Assembly: GCF_011492945.1 (NCBI RefSeq)
Contig: NZ_CP045119.1
Coordinates: 3,348,001-3,412,000, forward strand
Length of the DNA: 64,000 nt
Direction: 5' to 3'
Source of the DNA: Rubrobacter tropicus
GTDB taxonomy: Bacteria > Actinomycetota > Rubrobacteria > Rubrobacterales > Rubrobacteraceae
Shown: piece by piece, positions 8,377-14,869 of the stretch
Layout of the letters: each line of letters starts with the position of its first letter
How positions within the stretch are numbered: the stretch's first letter is position 1
The notes under the pieces: generated by a model
The model's database searches: none
What the model was told of the DNA's origin: nothing
Seen by the model: only the letters and a program-made list of their open reading frames with translations
Made by a program: the position numbers and the translations under genes

Positions 8377-8529
8377 CTACTCGTCCTTGCTGATCCAGTA
8401 CGTAAAACCGAGAAAGCCCAAAAAGAACGTCATTACCAGCAGGAACCCGGCGAAGAACCGGAAGACGCCGAGGCCCGTCGGGTTCCCGGTGCTTCCTTCC
8501 TGGAAGAGGAGCAACGCGAGGTCGATCAT
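8377..8529 (-). CDS. 50-residue single-span membrane protein, last gene of the respiratory operon
   Basis: Small protein of 50 residues: a short polar N-terminus (LLLFQEGSTGNPTG), one hydrophobic helix at about residues 23-45 (FRFFAGFLLVMTFFLGFLG) and a TYWISKDE tail. Its ATG (8527-8529) overlaps the stop of the CydA-like gene as ATGA, so it is translationally coupled to it. Position and size recall the small accessory subunits of cytochrome bd oxidases (CydX-like), but I see no sequence proof. Existence is well supported by the overlap and by the clean membrane helix; function is inferred. Confidence 0.7.
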   Translation of the reverse strand: MIDLALLLFQEGSTGNPTGLGVFRFFAGFLLVMTFFLGFLGFTYWISKDE

Positions 8530-9866
8530 TCGGCCGCCTCCATGAGTGGTTCGGTCGGACATCCTTCGCTGACGATCTTCTGGTCGAGCGTCACGCAGTC
8601 GTTGATGAGGTAGCCCGGGTTGTTGTCTACCCGGCGGGCGGTCTCGCGGGTGTAGCCCATCGTTACCATCGTAAAGACCACGAAGACCGAGCACGCCATC
8701 AGCGCGTACTGGCTCCACCGGCTGGCCCTGCCCCAGTGGAACCCCGTCGCCGTCGCCCTGAGGTAGAGGGCTATGACGAAGAAGCCGACGAGCATCAGCC
8801 CGATCAGACCTATGTACTTCCACGGGTACATGCTGCCCAGCGGTATGCTCGTGGAGTCGCCGCCCGCGAACGTCAGCCCGATCTGGGAGATCAGGTCCGC
8901 GTCCGCCGGGATGACGTTCAGTATCGTGAAGAGCGCCGTGAAACCGAGGCCGCCGACCGCGAGCTTGCGCATCGTCTCCATCGGCTTGACCGTAAAGCGC
9001 AGCTTGTGGACGAAGTACGCGGTCGAGGCGATGCTCAGGACCGCGATCCAGAGGACCAGCAGGTTGAAGACCCAGGCCTTGTCGCCGAGCATGATCGTGT
9101 TGAACGACTCGGGCGCGCTCTCGCGGATACCTTTCAGGTAGCCGTAGCCTATGACCGGCTGCATGATCAGGAACCCGAAGCCCCAGATCAGGCCGAAGTG
9201 CCCCATCCAGTCGTAGTACTCCCGCTCGCTCTCCCTGGTGGTCCTCAGGTAGCGCCAGGCACCCCAGCCCGCAATCAGGAACCCTGCGTAGGAGAAGTTC
9301 CCTACGAAGCGGTGCATGTTGAGCGGCACCATGGTCTGGTTGAGGAAGGAGCGGGCCACGAGCTCGGACTGGGAGGTGACCTCGGCGGGGGTGAGCATGA
9401 AGGAGGCGACGGCGTCGATCATGGTCATCGCCATCAGGCCGAAGAAGCCGGCTATGAAGCCGAAAACTACGTGCAGGCTCTTCCGGTAGGCGAGCTTGTC
9501 CCAGACGTTGTACCAGGCGTAGACGATGATGATCTGGCCGAGGAACATGAACGCCTCGACGAGGAAGACCCAGAAGAAGATGTTCTGAAGGATAGAGAAG
9601 AAGACCGGGAACAGCGTAACGAGCGCGAGCACGAACGTGATCGCGAGCGCCGCCCCGGAGGCGAAGAGCAGTACCACGAAGCGCGCCAGGTTACGGGCGA
9701 AGCGCTCGTAGTTGGCCTGCTTGGTCACCATCCCGAGGTACTCGCTCGTCGCCGCGATGAGGACGGCCCCGATGATGAAGGCCGCGAAGAGGATGTGCGT
9801 CTGGACGAGAACGGCGATAACGACGTTCTTGCCGATTATTGGAACGTCGAGGTTACCTATGGGCAT
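8526..9866 (-). CDS. CydA-like (cytochrome bd superfamily) subunit, copy 1
   Basis: Membrane protein of 446 residues with about nine helices, related to cytochrome bd oxidase subunit I. Candidate heme ligands sit where CydA has them: a His near the N-terminus (VQTHILFAAF) and a second in NMHRFVGNFSYAGF. A Glu in WVFLVEAFMFLG matches the position of the CydA helix-III glutamates. The quinol-binding Q loop and the GRQPW motif of true CydA are absent. It lies fifth in the operon, 12 nt after the cytochrome b C-terminal gene, behind GAAGGAG. Probably an oxygen- or electron-handling subunit fed by the bc module; exact role inferred. Confidence 0.75.
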   Translation of the reverse strand: MPIGNLDVPIIGKNVVIAVLVQTHILFAAFIIGAVLIAATSEYLGMVTKQANYERFARNLARFVVLLFASGAALAITFVLALVTLFPVFFSILQNIFFWVFLVEAFMFLGQIIIVYAWYNVWDKLAYRKSLHVVFGFIAGFFGLMAMTMIDAVASFMLTPAEVTSQSELVARSFLNQTMVPLNMHRFVGNFSYAGFLIAGWGAWRYLRTTRESEREYYDWMGHFGLIWGFGFLIMQPVIGYGYLKGIRESAPESFNTIMLGDKAWVFNLLVLWIAVLSIASTAYFVHKLRFTVKPMETMRKLAVGGLGFTALFTILNVIPADADLISQIGLTFAGGDSTSIPLGSMYPWKYIGLIGLMLVGFFVIALYLRATATGFHWGRASRWSQYALMACSVFVVFTMVTMGYTRETARRVDNNPGYLINDCVTLDQKIVSEGCPTEPLMEAAE

Positions 9867-9878
9867 CCTCTACTCCTT

Positions 9879-10367
9879 CTAGGCCGTCGGGAAGTTCATG
9901 ATCCGGCTGACGGCCATCAGCATGTTCAGGACCACGATCACGACCACGAGAATACCGATGATGGTCGCGAAGGGCCTGCTGATGGCGCTGTAGTGCTGCG
10001 GGCTCCTGTCGAGCCACGGCACGGCGAAGAGCAACACTATGAAGATAGTCGGCACGACCACGGCCCCGAAGGCGACCAGGGCGTAGCCGGGGAAGAACAT
10101 GAGCATCTGCTCGTAGAAGAAGAAGAACCACTCGGGCCGCGGCACGTAGTCTACCGTCGCCGTGTCGGCCGGCTCGGTGAGCGGGGCCGGCGCGGCGTAG
10201 GAAAGGATGGCGCAGGCGATCAAAAGAAACGTGAAGACGTAGGTGTCCTTGAGGACCTGCCCGGGGAAGAAGCCCATCGTCTCGTCCGGACGATCGAAGA
10301 CGTTCTCCTCGGTGATTACCTCTTCCTCTACCGGCTTGTCCTTGCCGGTCGCCGGAACGTATACCAT
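9879..10367 (-). CDS. Cytochrome b C-terminal domain protein (subunit IV-like)
   Basis: Protein of 162 residues with three membrane helices, equivalent to subunit IV (PetD) of cytochrome b6-type complexes. After a charged N-terminus comes FFPGQVLKD, then a helix, and the quinol-site motif appears as PRPEWFFFF (PEWY-like) before the second helix. In split b6-type complexes this subunit completes the quinol oxidation pocket with the b6-like subunit encoded 70 nt upstream. ATG start behind GAGAGAGGTAAGG. Length is that of a short subunit IV with no fusion. Confidence 0.88.
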   Translation of the reverse strand: MVYVPATGKDKPVEEEVITEENVFDRPDETMGFFPGQVLKDTYVFTFLLIACAILSYAAPAPLTEPADTATVDYVPRPEWFFFFYEQMLMFFPGYALVAFGAVVVPTIFIVLLFAVPWLDRSPQHYSAISRPFATIIGILVVVIVVLNMLMAVSRIMNFPTA

Positions 10368-10437
10368 GACCTTACCTCTCTCCTAGTCGACCAGCCGCAC
10401 TATAACAGCGCCGCACATCGCTCCTCGGTAAATGCTC

Positions 10438-11253
10438 TTACTCGCGCCTGCCGTTGCCGCGGCCATTGCCCCGGCCATCGTACTCGTCTTCTTCCTCGTC
10501 GAGCTCGTAGTCCGCGTATTCTTCCAGCCGCTGCCGTTCGTGCAGCTTCGCCAACCGCTCGGAGTACTCGAACTCGCTGCCGAACACGCCGTGGCGCCTG
10601 AGCAGGTACAGGTGAAGGCCTATGAACGGCGCAATCGCCGCGGGCAGCAACCACACGTGCAACGCGAAGAACCGGGAGAGCGTGGCGGGCCCCGCCACGT
10701 CGCCCCCGAGCAGGAAGTTGACCACGTACCCTCCCACGAACGGGGAGTAGGACCCGATCTTCATGCCCACGACGCTCGCCCAGAAGCCGTCCTGGTCCCA
10801 CCGCAAGAGGTAGCCCGTGAAGGCGAGGCCTATGACCAGAAGAAGCAGGATGACGCCGACGACCCAGTTCAGCTCGCGGGGCGCCTTGTAGCCGCCGGCG
10901 AAGAAGACCTGGGCCATGTGCAGGCCGATCATGGCGAGCAGGAAGTTGGCCGACCAGTAGTGCAGGCCGCGGATGAGCTGGCCGAAGTAGGCCTCGTTCA
11001 TTATGTAGTTGACCGAGTTCCACGCGTGGTCGGTCGAGGGAACGTAGTAGAAGAGCAGGAGAATGCCCGTCAAAAACTGCACGGTGATGAGCAGCAACAC
11101 CGCGCTGCCCAAAGTGTAGATCCAGGCGCCCCGCTTCGGGACCGGCTCGTAGAGCGCGTGTTCCATTATCGTGACGATCCCGGTGCGGTGCTCCATCCAG
11201 TCCACTATGAACTTGGAGGCTTCTTCGGTCTGGGACCTTATCCTGCCGATCAT
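10438..11253 (-). CDS. Cytochrome b N-terminal domain protein (b6-like)
   Basis: Diheme cytochrome b of 271 residues with four core helices. The four heme ligands are visible as two pairs: H-x13-H in GLHYWSANFLLAMIGLHM and H-x14-H in ALHVWLLPAAIAPFIGLHLY. The 13/14 spacing is that of the b6 type. There is no cysteine, so no covalent extra heme. The last 35 residues are acidic and then Gly/Arg/Asn-rich (RGNGRGNGRRE), an unusual tail on the cytoplasmic side. It follows the Rieske gene by 18 nt and forms the quinol-oxidising core of a bc-type complex. Confidence 0.92.
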   Translation of the reverse strand: MIGRIRSQTEEASKFIVDWMEHRTGIVTIMEHALYEPVPKRGAWIYTLGSAVLLLITVQFLTGILLLFYYVPSTDHAWNSVNYIMNEAYFGQLIRGLHYWSANFLLAMIGLHMAQVFFAGGYKAPRELNWVVGVILLLLVIGLAFTGYLLRWDQDGFWASVVGMKIGSYSPFVGGYVVNFLLGGDVAGPATLSRFFALHVWLLPAAIAPFIGLHLYLLRRHGVFGSEFEYSERLAKLHERQRLEEYADYELDEEEDEYDGRGNGRGNGRRE

Positions 11254-11271
11254 GCTCTAAGGTCTCCCTCT

Positions 11272-12003
11272 CTAGACCACATAAGGTTGCTGGGTGCTGA
11301 TACCGGGGATACCGGGTTGGATGTCGTACCCGTGCTTTATGTACAGGGTACCGTCTTCCCGGATCTCCGCCTGTGTGTAGCTGTACATTCCCCGCGGCGG
11401 CGGTCCCCCGACGTACCCGCCGTTGATGTCGTAGAGCCCCCCGTGGCACGGGCACAAGAACTCGTGCTTGTCCGGGAACCACCTGACCGGGCAGCCCAGG
11501 TGGGCGCAGGAGTTCGACAGGATGTTGAGCTTACCCAGGATCTCCTGCCGCTCGGACTCGGTGAACCCGGAAGTTTTCTGGTCCAGGATCGCCGGCTTCT
11601 CCGGCTCGCCCAGGATGTCCCCGCCCGAGCCCTGGGTGCCCTGGGTCTTTATGGGCGCCTTCCAGGAGAGCCAGACCGCGTGCCTGGTCGTGAACTCGGC
11701 CTGGGACTTCTGGGACTCCGGGAACTTCTCCTGGATCTCCTTATCGCTGTAGACCTGCTCGATCGGGAACTCGACCTCGAAGACGTCGGGGGTTCCCGGC
11801 TTGAGACTCTTCAGATCCTCGACGGAGGCGACGCGCTGCCAGCCCGGGTCGACGTCCGTCTGGCCGAGCACGTTCGTCTTTATGACCGGGCTCAGGACGA
11901 ATGCGACCGGCGGCAGCGTGAGGATCGCCCCCGAGATCGCGCCGAGCACCCCGAAGCCGAGGAAGTCGCCGCGGGTGATGGGATCTTTCTGTAACTCCGC
12001 CAA
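11272..12003 (-). CDS. Rieske [2Fe-2S] protein of the bc-type complex
   Basis: Iron-sulfur subunit of 243 residues. An N-terminal anchor helix (about 15-38, LGFGVLGAISGAILTLPP) is followed by an extracytoplasmic domain with both cluster-binding boxes: CAHLGC and CPCHGG. A Pro-rich loop (GGPPPRGMYSY) follows. A 60-residue insertion (about 70-135, YSDKEIQEKFPESQ...) precedes the cluster fold. Start TTG at 12003 behind AAGGGGAC. It passes electrons from quinol to the next carrier. No cytochrome c1 gene is present in the operon, so that carrier is not obvious. Confidence 0.92.
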   Translation of the reverse strand: MAELQKDPITRGDFLGFGVLGAISGAILTLPPVAFVLSPVIKTNVLGQTDVDPGWQRVASVEDLKSLKPGTPDVFEVEFPIEQVYSDKEIQEKFPESQKSQAEFTTRHAVWLSWKAPIKTQGTQGSGGDILGEPEKPAILDQKTSGFTESERQEILGKLNILSNSCAHLGCPVRWFPDKHEFLCPCHGGLYDINGGYVGGPPPRGMYSYTQAEIREDGTLYIKHGYDIQPGIPGISTQQPYVV

Positions 12004-12020
12004 AGCTGTCCCCTTCTAAC

Positions 12021-13349
12021 CTACTGCCCGAACCCCGTGGGCGGTGGGCTCGGTTCCACGGTGTATCCTGGCTGATTATAAACGGTGAACGGCACCCTGG
12101 AATTGGATTTCATCAGCCCCATGTTCATCGCGAGCACCGCCGCGAGCACCCCCGCCGCCATCAGCACCACCCTGTAACTCCCGCCCGGGCTGCCGTACCG
12201 GAAGCGCAACCTGCCGCGCAGGTAGGTGACGAAGGCAGCCAGCGTGGCGAGCAGCATGACGAGCAGCATGATGTAGCGCATGTAGAGGAACGGGAAATCG
12301 GCCAGCGGCGAGACGGCGTAGAGCCCCGTGACCGCGGCCAGCAGGGCGAAGAACCTTATCGGAACGCGCCCGGCGTGGTCGGGATGCCGCTCCGACCCGA
12401 AGTACATGGCGAGGTTGCCCAGCACGAAGAGGACCACGACGAAGATCAGGTTCATCACCAGCAGGTTCGAGCTGCCCCCTTCGGTGAGCCGCTCGTAGGC
12501 CCCGCCGGCGGCCGGGCCGGACCCGCCGGGCGCCGACATCTTCAGCGAGTACATCATCGCGAACCCGACCACCGGCTGCAGGAGGAGGAACCCGACGCCC
12601 CAGGTGAGGCCGACGGAGGAGGTCCAGTCGTAGAAGGCCTTGTCCTCGGCTGTCTTTGACCGGATGTACATGAAGGAGGCCCAGGCCGCAAGGGCGAAGG
12701 CGGGCCAGGAGAGGTTGGCGAAGGTCCTGTGGAGGACCATCTCCGTGAACATCGGGTTGAAGATCCCCTGCACCGCCGCCCCGAAGCTGGCGATGTTCTG
12801 CCCGATGGCCGGCGCGCCGGGGCCTCCCGTGGTCATGAAGGTGTCGATACCGGTCATGATGACCATCCAGATCCAGATGAAAAAGCCCATCGTGAAACCG
12901 AGGGCGATGTGCCGCTTCTTGTTGAGGACGCTGTAGCGGTCCCACTTGTAGTAGTAGGAGTACATCCCCCACAGCGCGAGCCCCATCGAGAGCATCGCCA
13001 GGGCTATAAAGTAGAAGAAGTGCGTGAAGAGCGAGGTGGTCACCGGCGGGTAGAGCCCGACGAGCAACACGACGAAGAGGACGGCGAACGTCGCGCCGGT
13101 CGAGAAGGTGAGCACGTTGAACCGGGCCATCGAGTGGGCCAGGCGGTCCATCCTCGGGCTGCCGGTGCGGGCGCCCCAGGCCTGCAGGACGGGTGCGGCA
13201 AGCGCGAAGCCCACGAAGATCTCCGCGAAGAACATGTGGATGAGCATGGACGCGCCCGTGATGAAGCGGGCGCCGCCGACCTGCTCGAAGCCGTCGGTGA
13301 CGTTCAACTGGGCCAGGAAGTGCAGGCCCGACAGACTTATTGCACCCAC
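12021..13349 (-). CDS. CydA-like (cytochrome bd superfamily) subunit, copy 2
   Basis: Membrane protein of 442 residues, about nine helices, homologous to but clearly divergent from copy 1. Candidate axial His residues remain in LIHMFFAEIFVGFAL and VLHRTFANLSWPAF. The glutamate retained by copy 1 in helix III is missing here (FYFIALAMLSMGLALWG). The quinol-site GRQPW motif is also missing. Start GTG at 13349 behind GAAGGAG. Pairing of one CydA-like subunit with and one without the catalytic-site acid recalls the CydA/CydA' pairs described in archaea; that comparison is from memory and needs a tree. Confidence 0.72.
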   Translation of the reverse strand: MGAISLSGLHFLAQLNVTDGFEQVGGARFITGASMLIHMFFAEIFVGFALAAPVLQAWGARTGSPRMDRLAHSMARFNVLTFSTGATFAVLFVVLLVGLYPPVTTSLFTHFFYFIALAMLSMGLALWGMYSYYYKWDRYSVLNKKRHIALGFTMGFFIWIWMVIMTGIDTFMTTGGPGAPAIGQNIASFGAAVQGIFNPMFTEMVLHRTFANLSWPAFALAAWASFMYIRSKTAEDKAFYDWTSSVGLTWGVGFLLLQPVVGFAMMYSLKMSAPGGSGPAAGGAYERLTEGGSSNLLVMNLIFVVVLFVLGNLAMYFGSERHPDHAGRVPIRFFALLAAVTGLYAVSPLADFPFLYMRYIMLLVMLLATLAAFVTYLRGRLRFRYGSPGGSYRVVLMAAGVLAAVLAMNMGLMKSNSRVPFTVYNQPGYTVEPSPPPTGFGQ

Positions 13350-13363
13350 GCTCTAAGCTCCTT

Positions 13364-13999
13364 CTAGGCTCCGCCGGATTTGTCGAGAACTGACTCCCCC
13401 ACCCGCGGCCCCCCGGCCCGGCGTAGGAGCGCCTGGTGGACCGCCCGCGGCTCCAGCCGCCGGTCCACTATGTAGTACATGGCGCCGTTGCGTTGCAGGG
13501 CCTCGCGCACAGGGCGCAGGAGGCGCCGCTCGCGGGTCGAGGCGAAGACGAGGACCTTACCCATCTCGAAGGCCTGGTTCCAGGTGCCGGCCTCCTCCTG
13601 CGGTGCCTGCATCTCCATCAAGATCGGGTCCACCCCGACCCTGCTCATCGAGCCGGCGACGAGGATGGCGGCGAGCGAGACGAAGACCATGAGGGTCGGT
13701 ATGCCTATGGCGGGCGTCGTTATGGCGAAGAAGGTCCCGATGACCACGAAAGACACGGCGAAGCCGAGCGGAACCTCGAGCCCCCGCTTGTCCCCCGGCA
13801 CGACTATGTAGCGCGTGCCCTCCGGGAAGGGCTCCGGCTCGGACGAGTCCTGACGCTTGAGCACGACGGTCAGGTCGTCCCGATCCACGCCGAGGTCCCT
13901 GATCTCCGTGACCGCCTGATTCAATTCCGTGCCGTCGTCTATGACCCCGACGACGGTGTACCAGGGAGCCTGCTCCTGCGCCTCCCGCCTTTCCGTCAA
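13364..13999 (-). CDS. Two-span membrane protein, first gene of the respiratory operon
   Basis: Protein of 211 residues: an N-terminal alpha/beta domain (WYTVVGVIDDGTELNQAVTEIRDLG, about 12-75), two adjacent membrane helices (about 78-125) and a C-terminal soluble domain ending in LDKSGGA. The TTG at 13999 is chosen because GGAGGT sits 6 nt upstream; the frame is open further upstream but runs into the divergent gene. The layout (small domain - two helices - small domain) is like membrane subunits that tether bc-type or alternative complexes, but I do not recognise the family. It heads the operon, 14 nt before the second CydA-like gene. Confidence 0.65.
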   Translation of the reverse strand: MTERREAQEQAPWYTVVGVIDDGTELNQAVTEIRDLGVDRDDLTVVLKRQDSSEPEPFPEGTRYIVVPGDKRGLEVPLGFAVSFVVIGTFFAITTPAIGIPTLMVFVSLAAILVAGSMSRVGVDPILMEMQAPQEEAGTWNQAFEMGKVLVFASTRERRLLRPVREALQRNGAMYYIVDRRLEPRAVHQALLRRAGGPRVGESVLDKSGGA

Positions 14000-14188: not shown

Positions 14189-14869
14189 GTGGATACGCGC
14201 GACACCGAACGGCTCTCCGGCCCAGACGGGCGAGGCACGGAGCACTACGAGGACCGCGGCCTCGGCCCCTGGCTGCGGCGCAACCCCTCGCTGCTGCTGC
14301 GCCTGTTCATAGTCATGGTCTTCTCCTTCGCGGCCTCGACCGTGGCCTCCAACTTCTCCTACGGCCTCGAAGGGGCGCCCACCGTCCTGAGCGTCGAGGA
14401 GTTGAACCGGGGCGAGCTGCCGGCCGGCACGGAACTCGGCGATTACGTCGAAGTGCGCGGCACGGCCGACGTCGGGGACGGGGAGGCGATGACCGGGACC
14501 GCGGATTCCGAGATAGCCATCTCTTCCCGCTACAGCACCAGCTACTTCTACTTTGGGCTGCAGGAGACCGGGGACAACCTCCTCATCCAGACCACCGAAG
14601 GCCTGCCGCGGGGCCTCGCGAACCCGAAGGAGCGCGTCTGGAGCGGCAAGCTGGAGACCGTGGGCACCGTCATCTTCCACGACACGACCCAGGAGGGCCT
14701 AAAACGCGCGGGCCTCACCACCGACAACAGCGTCCCGGTCATAAACACGGGCGAGACGCCCCAGTACCTGCGCAAGATCTTCCCCGCCTACTCGGCGATC
14801 ATAGCCCTCTGGCTCCTCTCCGTCGCCTGGCTCGTCTGGAAGCGCAACAAGCCGTTTCTGGGGCTCTAG
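14189..14869 (+). CDS. Membrane protein of unknown function, divergent to the respiratory operon
   Basis: Protein of 226 residues with an N-terminal helix (about 33-55), an extracytoplasmic domain of about 140 residues rich in beta-strand-like segments (DYVEVRGTADVGDG, VWSGKLETVGTVIF) and a C-terminal helix (about 200-217) followed by KRNK. The two-helix hairpin form places the middle domain outside the cell. Start GTG at 14189 lacks a ribosome-binding site; upstream starts are possible. The stop codon lies inside a terminator hairpin. Shared regulation with the operon at 13999 is possible because the two share a 190-nt divergent promoter region. Confidence 0.55.
   Translation: MDTRDTERLSGPDGRGTEHYEDRGLGPWLRRNPSLLLRLFIVMVFSFAASTVASNFSYGLEGAPTVLSVEELNRGELPAGTELGDYVEVRGTADVGDGEAMTGTADSEIAISSRYSTSYFYFGLQETGDNLLIQTTEGLPRGLANPKERVWSGKLETVGTVIFHDTTQEGLKRAGLTTDNSVPVINTGETPQYLRKIFPAYSAIIALWLLSVAWLVWKRNKPFLGL

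Follow-up and report, generated by a model that had tools for sequence, protein, structure and literature searches.

Oxidases of the cytochrome bd type that have lost their quinol site are widespread in predictions, and the literature describes experimental confirmation as lacking and their electron donors as guessed. Here, we analyse a seven-gene operon that encodes two such proteins (CydA-like 1 and CydA-like 2) together with a Rieske/cytochrome b core, located in a 64,000-nucleotide (nt) stretch of DNA, referred to as the window, from the 4.58-megabase, two-contig genome of Rubrobacter tropicus. The closest precedent is the 'bd-like' (OR-N, CydAA') oxidases of Nitrospira and Nitrospina, in which CydA paralogs are paired without CydB, the quinol site is lost, N-terminal heme-ligand positions are kept and extra helices occur at the quinol loop (Q-loop); their hosts often have no heme-copper oxidase, and cytochrome c is the donor expected for them, with genes for cytochromes c in the vicinity (PMC10839748, PMC12342949, PMC3578206). 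The operon pair likewise has no quinol site and no fused cytochrome c domain and consists of two co-occurring CydA paralogs. In contrast to OR-N, however, cytochrome c maturation is absent from the Rubrobacteraceae, and the operon itself includes the donor genes (for the Rieske protein, cytochrome b and subunit IV).

A further parallel is the CIII_1 region of Nitrospira moscoviensis, where Rieske and cytochrome b genes are found near two bd-like genes (bd-like_1 and bd-like_2) and for which the authors speculated on a III–IV supercomplex (PMC6606698). That region comprises many genes, includes several c-type cytochromes and has cytochrome c as its presumed link, whereas the Rubrobacter genes form a compact seven-gene operon. 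The Rubrobacter version has no cytochrome c at all and unites donor and oxidase in one operon.

In the mycobacterial bcc-aa3 and Sulfolobus Sox complexes, quinol oxidation is coupled to an oxidase, in Sulfolobus without cytochrome c. With b6f and bc complexes and III–IV supercomplexes, the operon has in common a split b6-type cytochrome b, subunit IV, a Rieske protein and a proposed coupling to an oxidase, but it has no cytochrome f, c1 or cc and carries a bd-type rather than a heme-copper module. Its working would resemble that of a III–IV supercomplex, and the association of its two modules shows here as gene linkage and co-duplication. The OR-N and OR-C families were reportedly defined by Murali et al. 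2021, who are also reported to describe an archaeal CydAA' oxidase (Caldivirga) with two CydA paralogs instead of CydA and CydB that uses quinol directly; the Rubrobacter pair differs in lacking the quinol motif and in being co-encoded with a Rieske/b core.

From its sequence, the operon probably encodes a menaquinol:O2 oxidoreductase in which electrons from the Rieske/b core reach a bd-type di-heme site with no cytochrome c involved. The best explanation of the evidence below is that it serves the Rubrobacteraceae as their main oxygen reductase, and several species as the only one recognised. A preliminary description of this DNA had proposed that quinol is oxidised at the b–Rieske core and that electrons pass to a bd-type site; the hypothesis is supported, having passed each genomic test able to break it.

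Operon layout and the two CydA-like proteins

The seven reading frames are co-directional on the minus strand (window positions 8377-13999), with intergenic gaps of 14, 17, 18, 70 and 12 nt followed by one 4-nt overlap. The preliminary description had reported this gene order, with gaps of 12-70 nt and one overlap, and both its coordinates and its account of the genes proved correct. From the first gene, which starts with TTG at 13999, to the last, the operon contains:

13364-13999, minus strand: 211-amino-acid protein, two membrane spans predicted, N-terminal domain weakly YflT-like (PF11181 under its cut-off, E=0.002)
12021-13349, minus strand: CydA-like 2 (CydA'), bd subunit I fold (PF01654, residue alignment, predicted model)
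11272-12003, minus strand: Rieske [2Fe-2S] subunit (PF00355, invariant cluster residues, closest solved relatives)
10438-11253, minus strand: cytochrome b6-like subunit (PF00033, four invariant His, solved relatives being cytochrome b6)
9879-10367, minus strand: subunit IV-like, petD-like protein (PF00032, invariant PEWF)
8526-9866, minus strand: CydA-like 1, predicted catalytic O2-reducing subunit (PF01654, invariant ligand positions, predicted model, tree)
8377-8529, minus strand: 50-amino-acid single-span protein, a small subunit with the C-terminal motif FTYWISK[DEN]E (4-nt overlap with the end of CydA-like 1)

Pfam matches over the cut-off were obtained for Rieske (PF00355), Cytochrome_B (PF00033) and Cytochrom_B_C (PF00032) and, in both CydA-like proteins, for PF01654, although the latter span only about the first 245 of 418 positions. 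Neither a CydB gene nor one for cytochrome f, c1 or a diheme cytochrome c occurs in the operon. A scan of the seven proteins found no CxxCH, as previously described, and one chance CxxCH occurs across the whole window.

The residues expected of a Rieske/cytochrome b complex are all present, namely four heme histidines, the cluster ligands and the glutamate of the quinol-oxidation (Qo) site. In the Rieske protein, C166, H168, C171, C184, C186 and H187 (cluster ligands and disulfide cysteines) are invariant, as are the heme-ligand histidines H98, H112, H199 and H214 of cytochrome b, and subunit IV has an invariant PEWF at the Qo-site motif, which is of the PEWY type and carries the Qo-site Glu. 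The closest solved relatives of the core are cytochrome b6 and b6f Rieske proteins.

We aligned the CydA-like proteins with 21 CydAs of the canonical type and a single OR-C protein, using Escherichia coli numbering for equivalent positions. CydA-like 1 has invariant H24 (H19), E104 (E99), H185 (H186) and E408 (E445, within RETARR), such that all three bd active-site ligand positions (H19, E99 and E445) are kept and align with those of 21 of 21 canonical CydAs. CydA-like 2 keeps H38 (H19) and H207 (H186) but has Ala at E99 and Ser at E445 in 11 of 11 sequences, leaving only the helix-I His of the three active-site ligands. The preliminary description had noted a helix-III Glu in the first copy and not the second, which the alignment bears out (invariant E104 versus Ala in every aligned member), and had overlooked that the b595-ligand Glu (E408) is also kept in the first. 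Of the two heme b558 ligands, the H186 equivalent is invariant in both proteins, and M393 has become Ile in each.

The GRQPW quinol motif, already described as missing, is absent from both proteins, with RETARR and KSNSRVP in its place in all family members aligned. Comparison of the predicted model with the profile alignment places two extra predicted helices in the Q-loop region of CydA-like 1, and these recall the three helices reported at the quinol-loop place of the Nitrospina bd-like protein (PMC3578206). The models of both proteins (predicted local distance difference test score of ~80, predicted template modelling score of 0.80) match solved CydA chains best in Foldseek, with CydB chains behind. 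In the tree, CydA-like 1 and 2 are sisters (support 97 for the N-terminal part and 100 for the full alignment), and the 21 canonical CydAs group apart from both in a clade of their own (support 100); the tree contains no named OR-N references. This placement outside the canonical quinol-oxidase clade is the outcome of a check that the preliminary description had itself put forward. On these residue patterns, CydA-like 1 is predicted to be the catalytic O2-reducing subunit and CydA-like 2 a non-catalytic partner in place of CydB.

Canonical CydAB oxidases, including the copy in the same genome (L001, L003), have the CydA fold and active-site ligand positions in common with the operon, which differs in its lack of CydB, GRQPW and Met393 and in its separate clade. 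An OR-C CydA with a fused cytochrome c (an Agrobacterium plasmid protein, L093) is alike in that its quinol motif has become R-E-x-x-R (REFIRKP; RETARR here), but it has lost the His185 equivalent and has a cytochrome c domain, whereas CydA-like 1 keeps His185 and has no such domain. The fused or adjacent cytochrome c typical of OR-C is missing, as the operon has no CxxCH and the family no maturation genes.

All main operons examined, from about a dozen genera, have the seven genes in identical order, which argues that the arrangement did not arise by chance, and both CydA paralogs occur together in one operon in all of them. Protein searches recovered related operons from Rubrobacteraceae, including Rubrobacter marinus and R. 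taiwanensis, and from records labelled only Actinobacteria, Actinomycetota or uncultured actinobacterium; a scan of the collection for related proteins returned Rubrobacteraceae-type loci only. The CydA-like 1 profile had no match at 1e-8 in 357 sampled Actinomycetota genomes outside the family, and weak PF01654 matches in other Actinomycetota (L084-L088) were rejected as relatives because they were truncated or due to chance. A second, diverged block at five loci (L039, L042, L047, L050 and L053), some of them cut by a contig end, repeats this arrangement for the six large genes, including the 211-amino-acid two-span protein as conserved first gene. The CydA-like 1 copies from these blocks cluster together in the tree, and likewise those of CydA-like 2, as expected if the block was duplicated as a unit.

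Oxidases and cytochrome c across the Rubrobacteraceae

Genome-wide context is the strongest new evidence. We surveyed 39 Rubrobacteraceae genomes, in 33 of which relatives of CydA-like 1 were found (the genomes with no match are 75-86% complete). PF01578, a family needed by common cytochrome c maturation systems, matched 0 of the 39 and 9 of 14 control genomes, while cytochrome c (PF00034) matched one family genome, on one small contig of a metagenome-assembled genome (MAG). Cytochrome c was rejected as the electron link on these two counts. The lone match is a diheme protein on a 7-kilobase contig (L116:50-826; G019:C94), beside a transketolase gene; the MAG lacks maturation genes, and the guanine-plus-cytosine content of the contig (58%) does not mark it as foreign, but it is possibly contamination.

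COX1 (PF00115) matched two of the 39 genomes. The match in G002 is a 762-amino-acid protein with a NorB domain and the match in G013 reads alike; because both look like quinol-dependent nitric oxide (NO) reductases, a heme-copper O2 reductase elsewhere in the family was rejected. In G002, canonical cydAB is immediately preceded by the gene for the quinol-type NO reductase (L114:65-6035).

CydB is present in 21 of the 39 genomes, including that of R. tropicus, where an ordinary cydAB lies ~285 kilobases from the operon and the single CydB sits with the canonical CydA. The preliminary description's absence of CydB holds for the operon. The ordinary cydAB of the genome does not refute the hypothesis because the operon proteins do not group with it. 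Six genomes, all at least 92% complete (G004, G006, G018, G020, G023 and G027), contain no CydB, canonical CydA or COX1; their best PF01654 E-values are ~1e-20 to 1e-25, and they include the single-contig closed genome G027 and that of R. taiwanensis (G018). Since published work describes Rubrobacter strains as obligate aerobes (PMC6834744), the operon is the only recognised O2 reductase in these six. An earlier MAG study found Rubrobacteria to be without cytochrome c oxidase and ascribed their respiration to a cytochrome bd ubiquinol oxidase (PMC7901476).

Rubrobacter radiotolerans RSPS-4 has been reported as cytochrome-oxidase positive (PMC4148983), though the searches turned up neither cytochrome c nor a heme-copper oxidase, and the usual reading of the test would not apply.

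Proposed electron path and competing explanations

Menaquinol would be oxidised at the Qo site of the b6-type cytochrome b/subunit IV/Rieske core in a Q-cycle type of reaction, with one electron recycled via the two b hemes and the other passing from the Rieske cluster to the CydA pair with no cytochrome c between them. O2 would be reduced at the di-heme site of CydA-like 1, and CydA-like 2 would stand in for CydB structurally and may bind a b heme, acting as a relay, at H207. If the protons for O2 reduction are cytoplasmic, as in cytochrome bd, the yield would be about two charges per electron compared with one for cytochrome bd, a figure estimated from general bioenergetics. The union of the subunits in one complex, the direction and path of the electrons and O2 as the substrate are what we infer from the genomic evidence. 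We see an even chance for the proposal in its fullest form, which is a single particle of complex III and a bd-type oxygen reductase that works without cytochrome c, copper or heme a, serves several species as their only terminal oxidase and the whole family as its principal one, and conserves more energy than cytochrome bd through the added Q-cycle. To our knowledge, a quinol-oxidising complex joined directly to a bd-type O2-reducing subunit has not yet been seen in a purified respiratory complex.

Several points weigh against this proposal. Heme content, activity and complex formation are all predicted from sequence. With Met393 lost from both CydA-like proteins, the usual electron-entry heme b558 is not assured, and this heme could have another ligand, be five-coordinate or be absent, which is a weak point. 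The search for an alternative oxidase matched no control genome, and so its absence from the family is not demonstrated. Three CydA-like 1 genes stand alone without the rest of the operon (L038, L041 and L044). Lastly, the Rieske protein could be linked to CydA-like 1 by a soluble carrier that contains no heme, such as a cupredoxin encoded outside the operon.

This last point leads to the alternative that survives best, in which a CydAA' O2 reductase is fed by the Rieske/b core through such a carrier and the operon encodes two cooperating complexes. The lone copies imply that CydA-like 1 can be encoded apart, and the bd-like clusters of Nitrospina and Nitrospira also encode cupredoxins and cytochromes c (PMC3578206). 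However, neither the operon nor any paralogous operon contains a carrier gene, the missing maturation genes rule out cytochrome c in that role, and the Rieske/b genes sit between both CydA genes instead of beside them. We regard two complexes joined by a carrier as unlikely.

That an ordinary cytochrome bd quinol oxidase is merely co-transcribed with a bc complex, each using quinol alone, is improbable. Pfam and Foldseek do put both proteins in the bd subunit I fold, and canonical cydAB is found in the R. tropicus genome and about half of the family. Motif and tree led to the rejection of this arrangement: no family member has the quinol motif, extra helices stand where the Q-loop region would be, and the canonical clade (support 100) includes neither protein. 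It would also leave the bc complex without an electron acceptor, because there is no cytochrome c or maturation system. Slightly less probable still is that the CydA-like pair serves as a membrane anchor or relay, or reduces an acceptor other than O2, such as NO, since, even though both active-site Glu are gone from CydA-like 2 and the function of bd-like proteins in nitrite oxidisers has been termed enigmatic (PMC3578206), all the active-site ligand positions are conserved in CydA-like 1, no further O2 reductase is recognised in six near-complete genomes from this obligately aerobic family, and the quinol NO reductase, where it occurs, has a gene of its own.

Variant copies, neighbouring genes and implications

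The second Glu of helix III in CydA (E107) corresponds to position 111 of CydA-like 1, where most main operons have Gln, the paralogous operons have Glu, and the lone copies, along with some others, have Val, a variation that may mark different proton paths. The lone copy in R. taiwanensis (L044:7741-9913) is divergent from a gene for an ArsR-type regulator with a cysteine-rich C-terminus, which suggests a regulated alternative catalytic subunit.

One divergent gene accompanies the operon:

14213-14869, plus strand (start codon uncertain): protein with two spans flanking an extracytoplasmic domain, no Pfam family

It is found beside nearly every main operon (27 loci with 48-83% identity, plus a fragment in L055) and not beside the paralogous operons, and it is possibly a dedicated assembly factor. 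Its layout resembles that of SURF1, but neither Pfam nor PDB profiles support this identity, which was rejected.

In Rubrobacter, the operon itself specifies the proposed donor of a quinol-site-free bd-like oxidase, genome-wide searches exclude cytochrome c and there are cultivated species with no other recognised O2 reductase, so that ordinary biochemistry on native membranes can answer the question of function. The proposed oxidoreductase would correct the present reading that Rubrobacteria simply use a cytochrome bd ubiquinol oxidase (PMC7901476), and it would explain the respiration of Rubrobacter, which is radiation-resistant and abundant in desert crusts.

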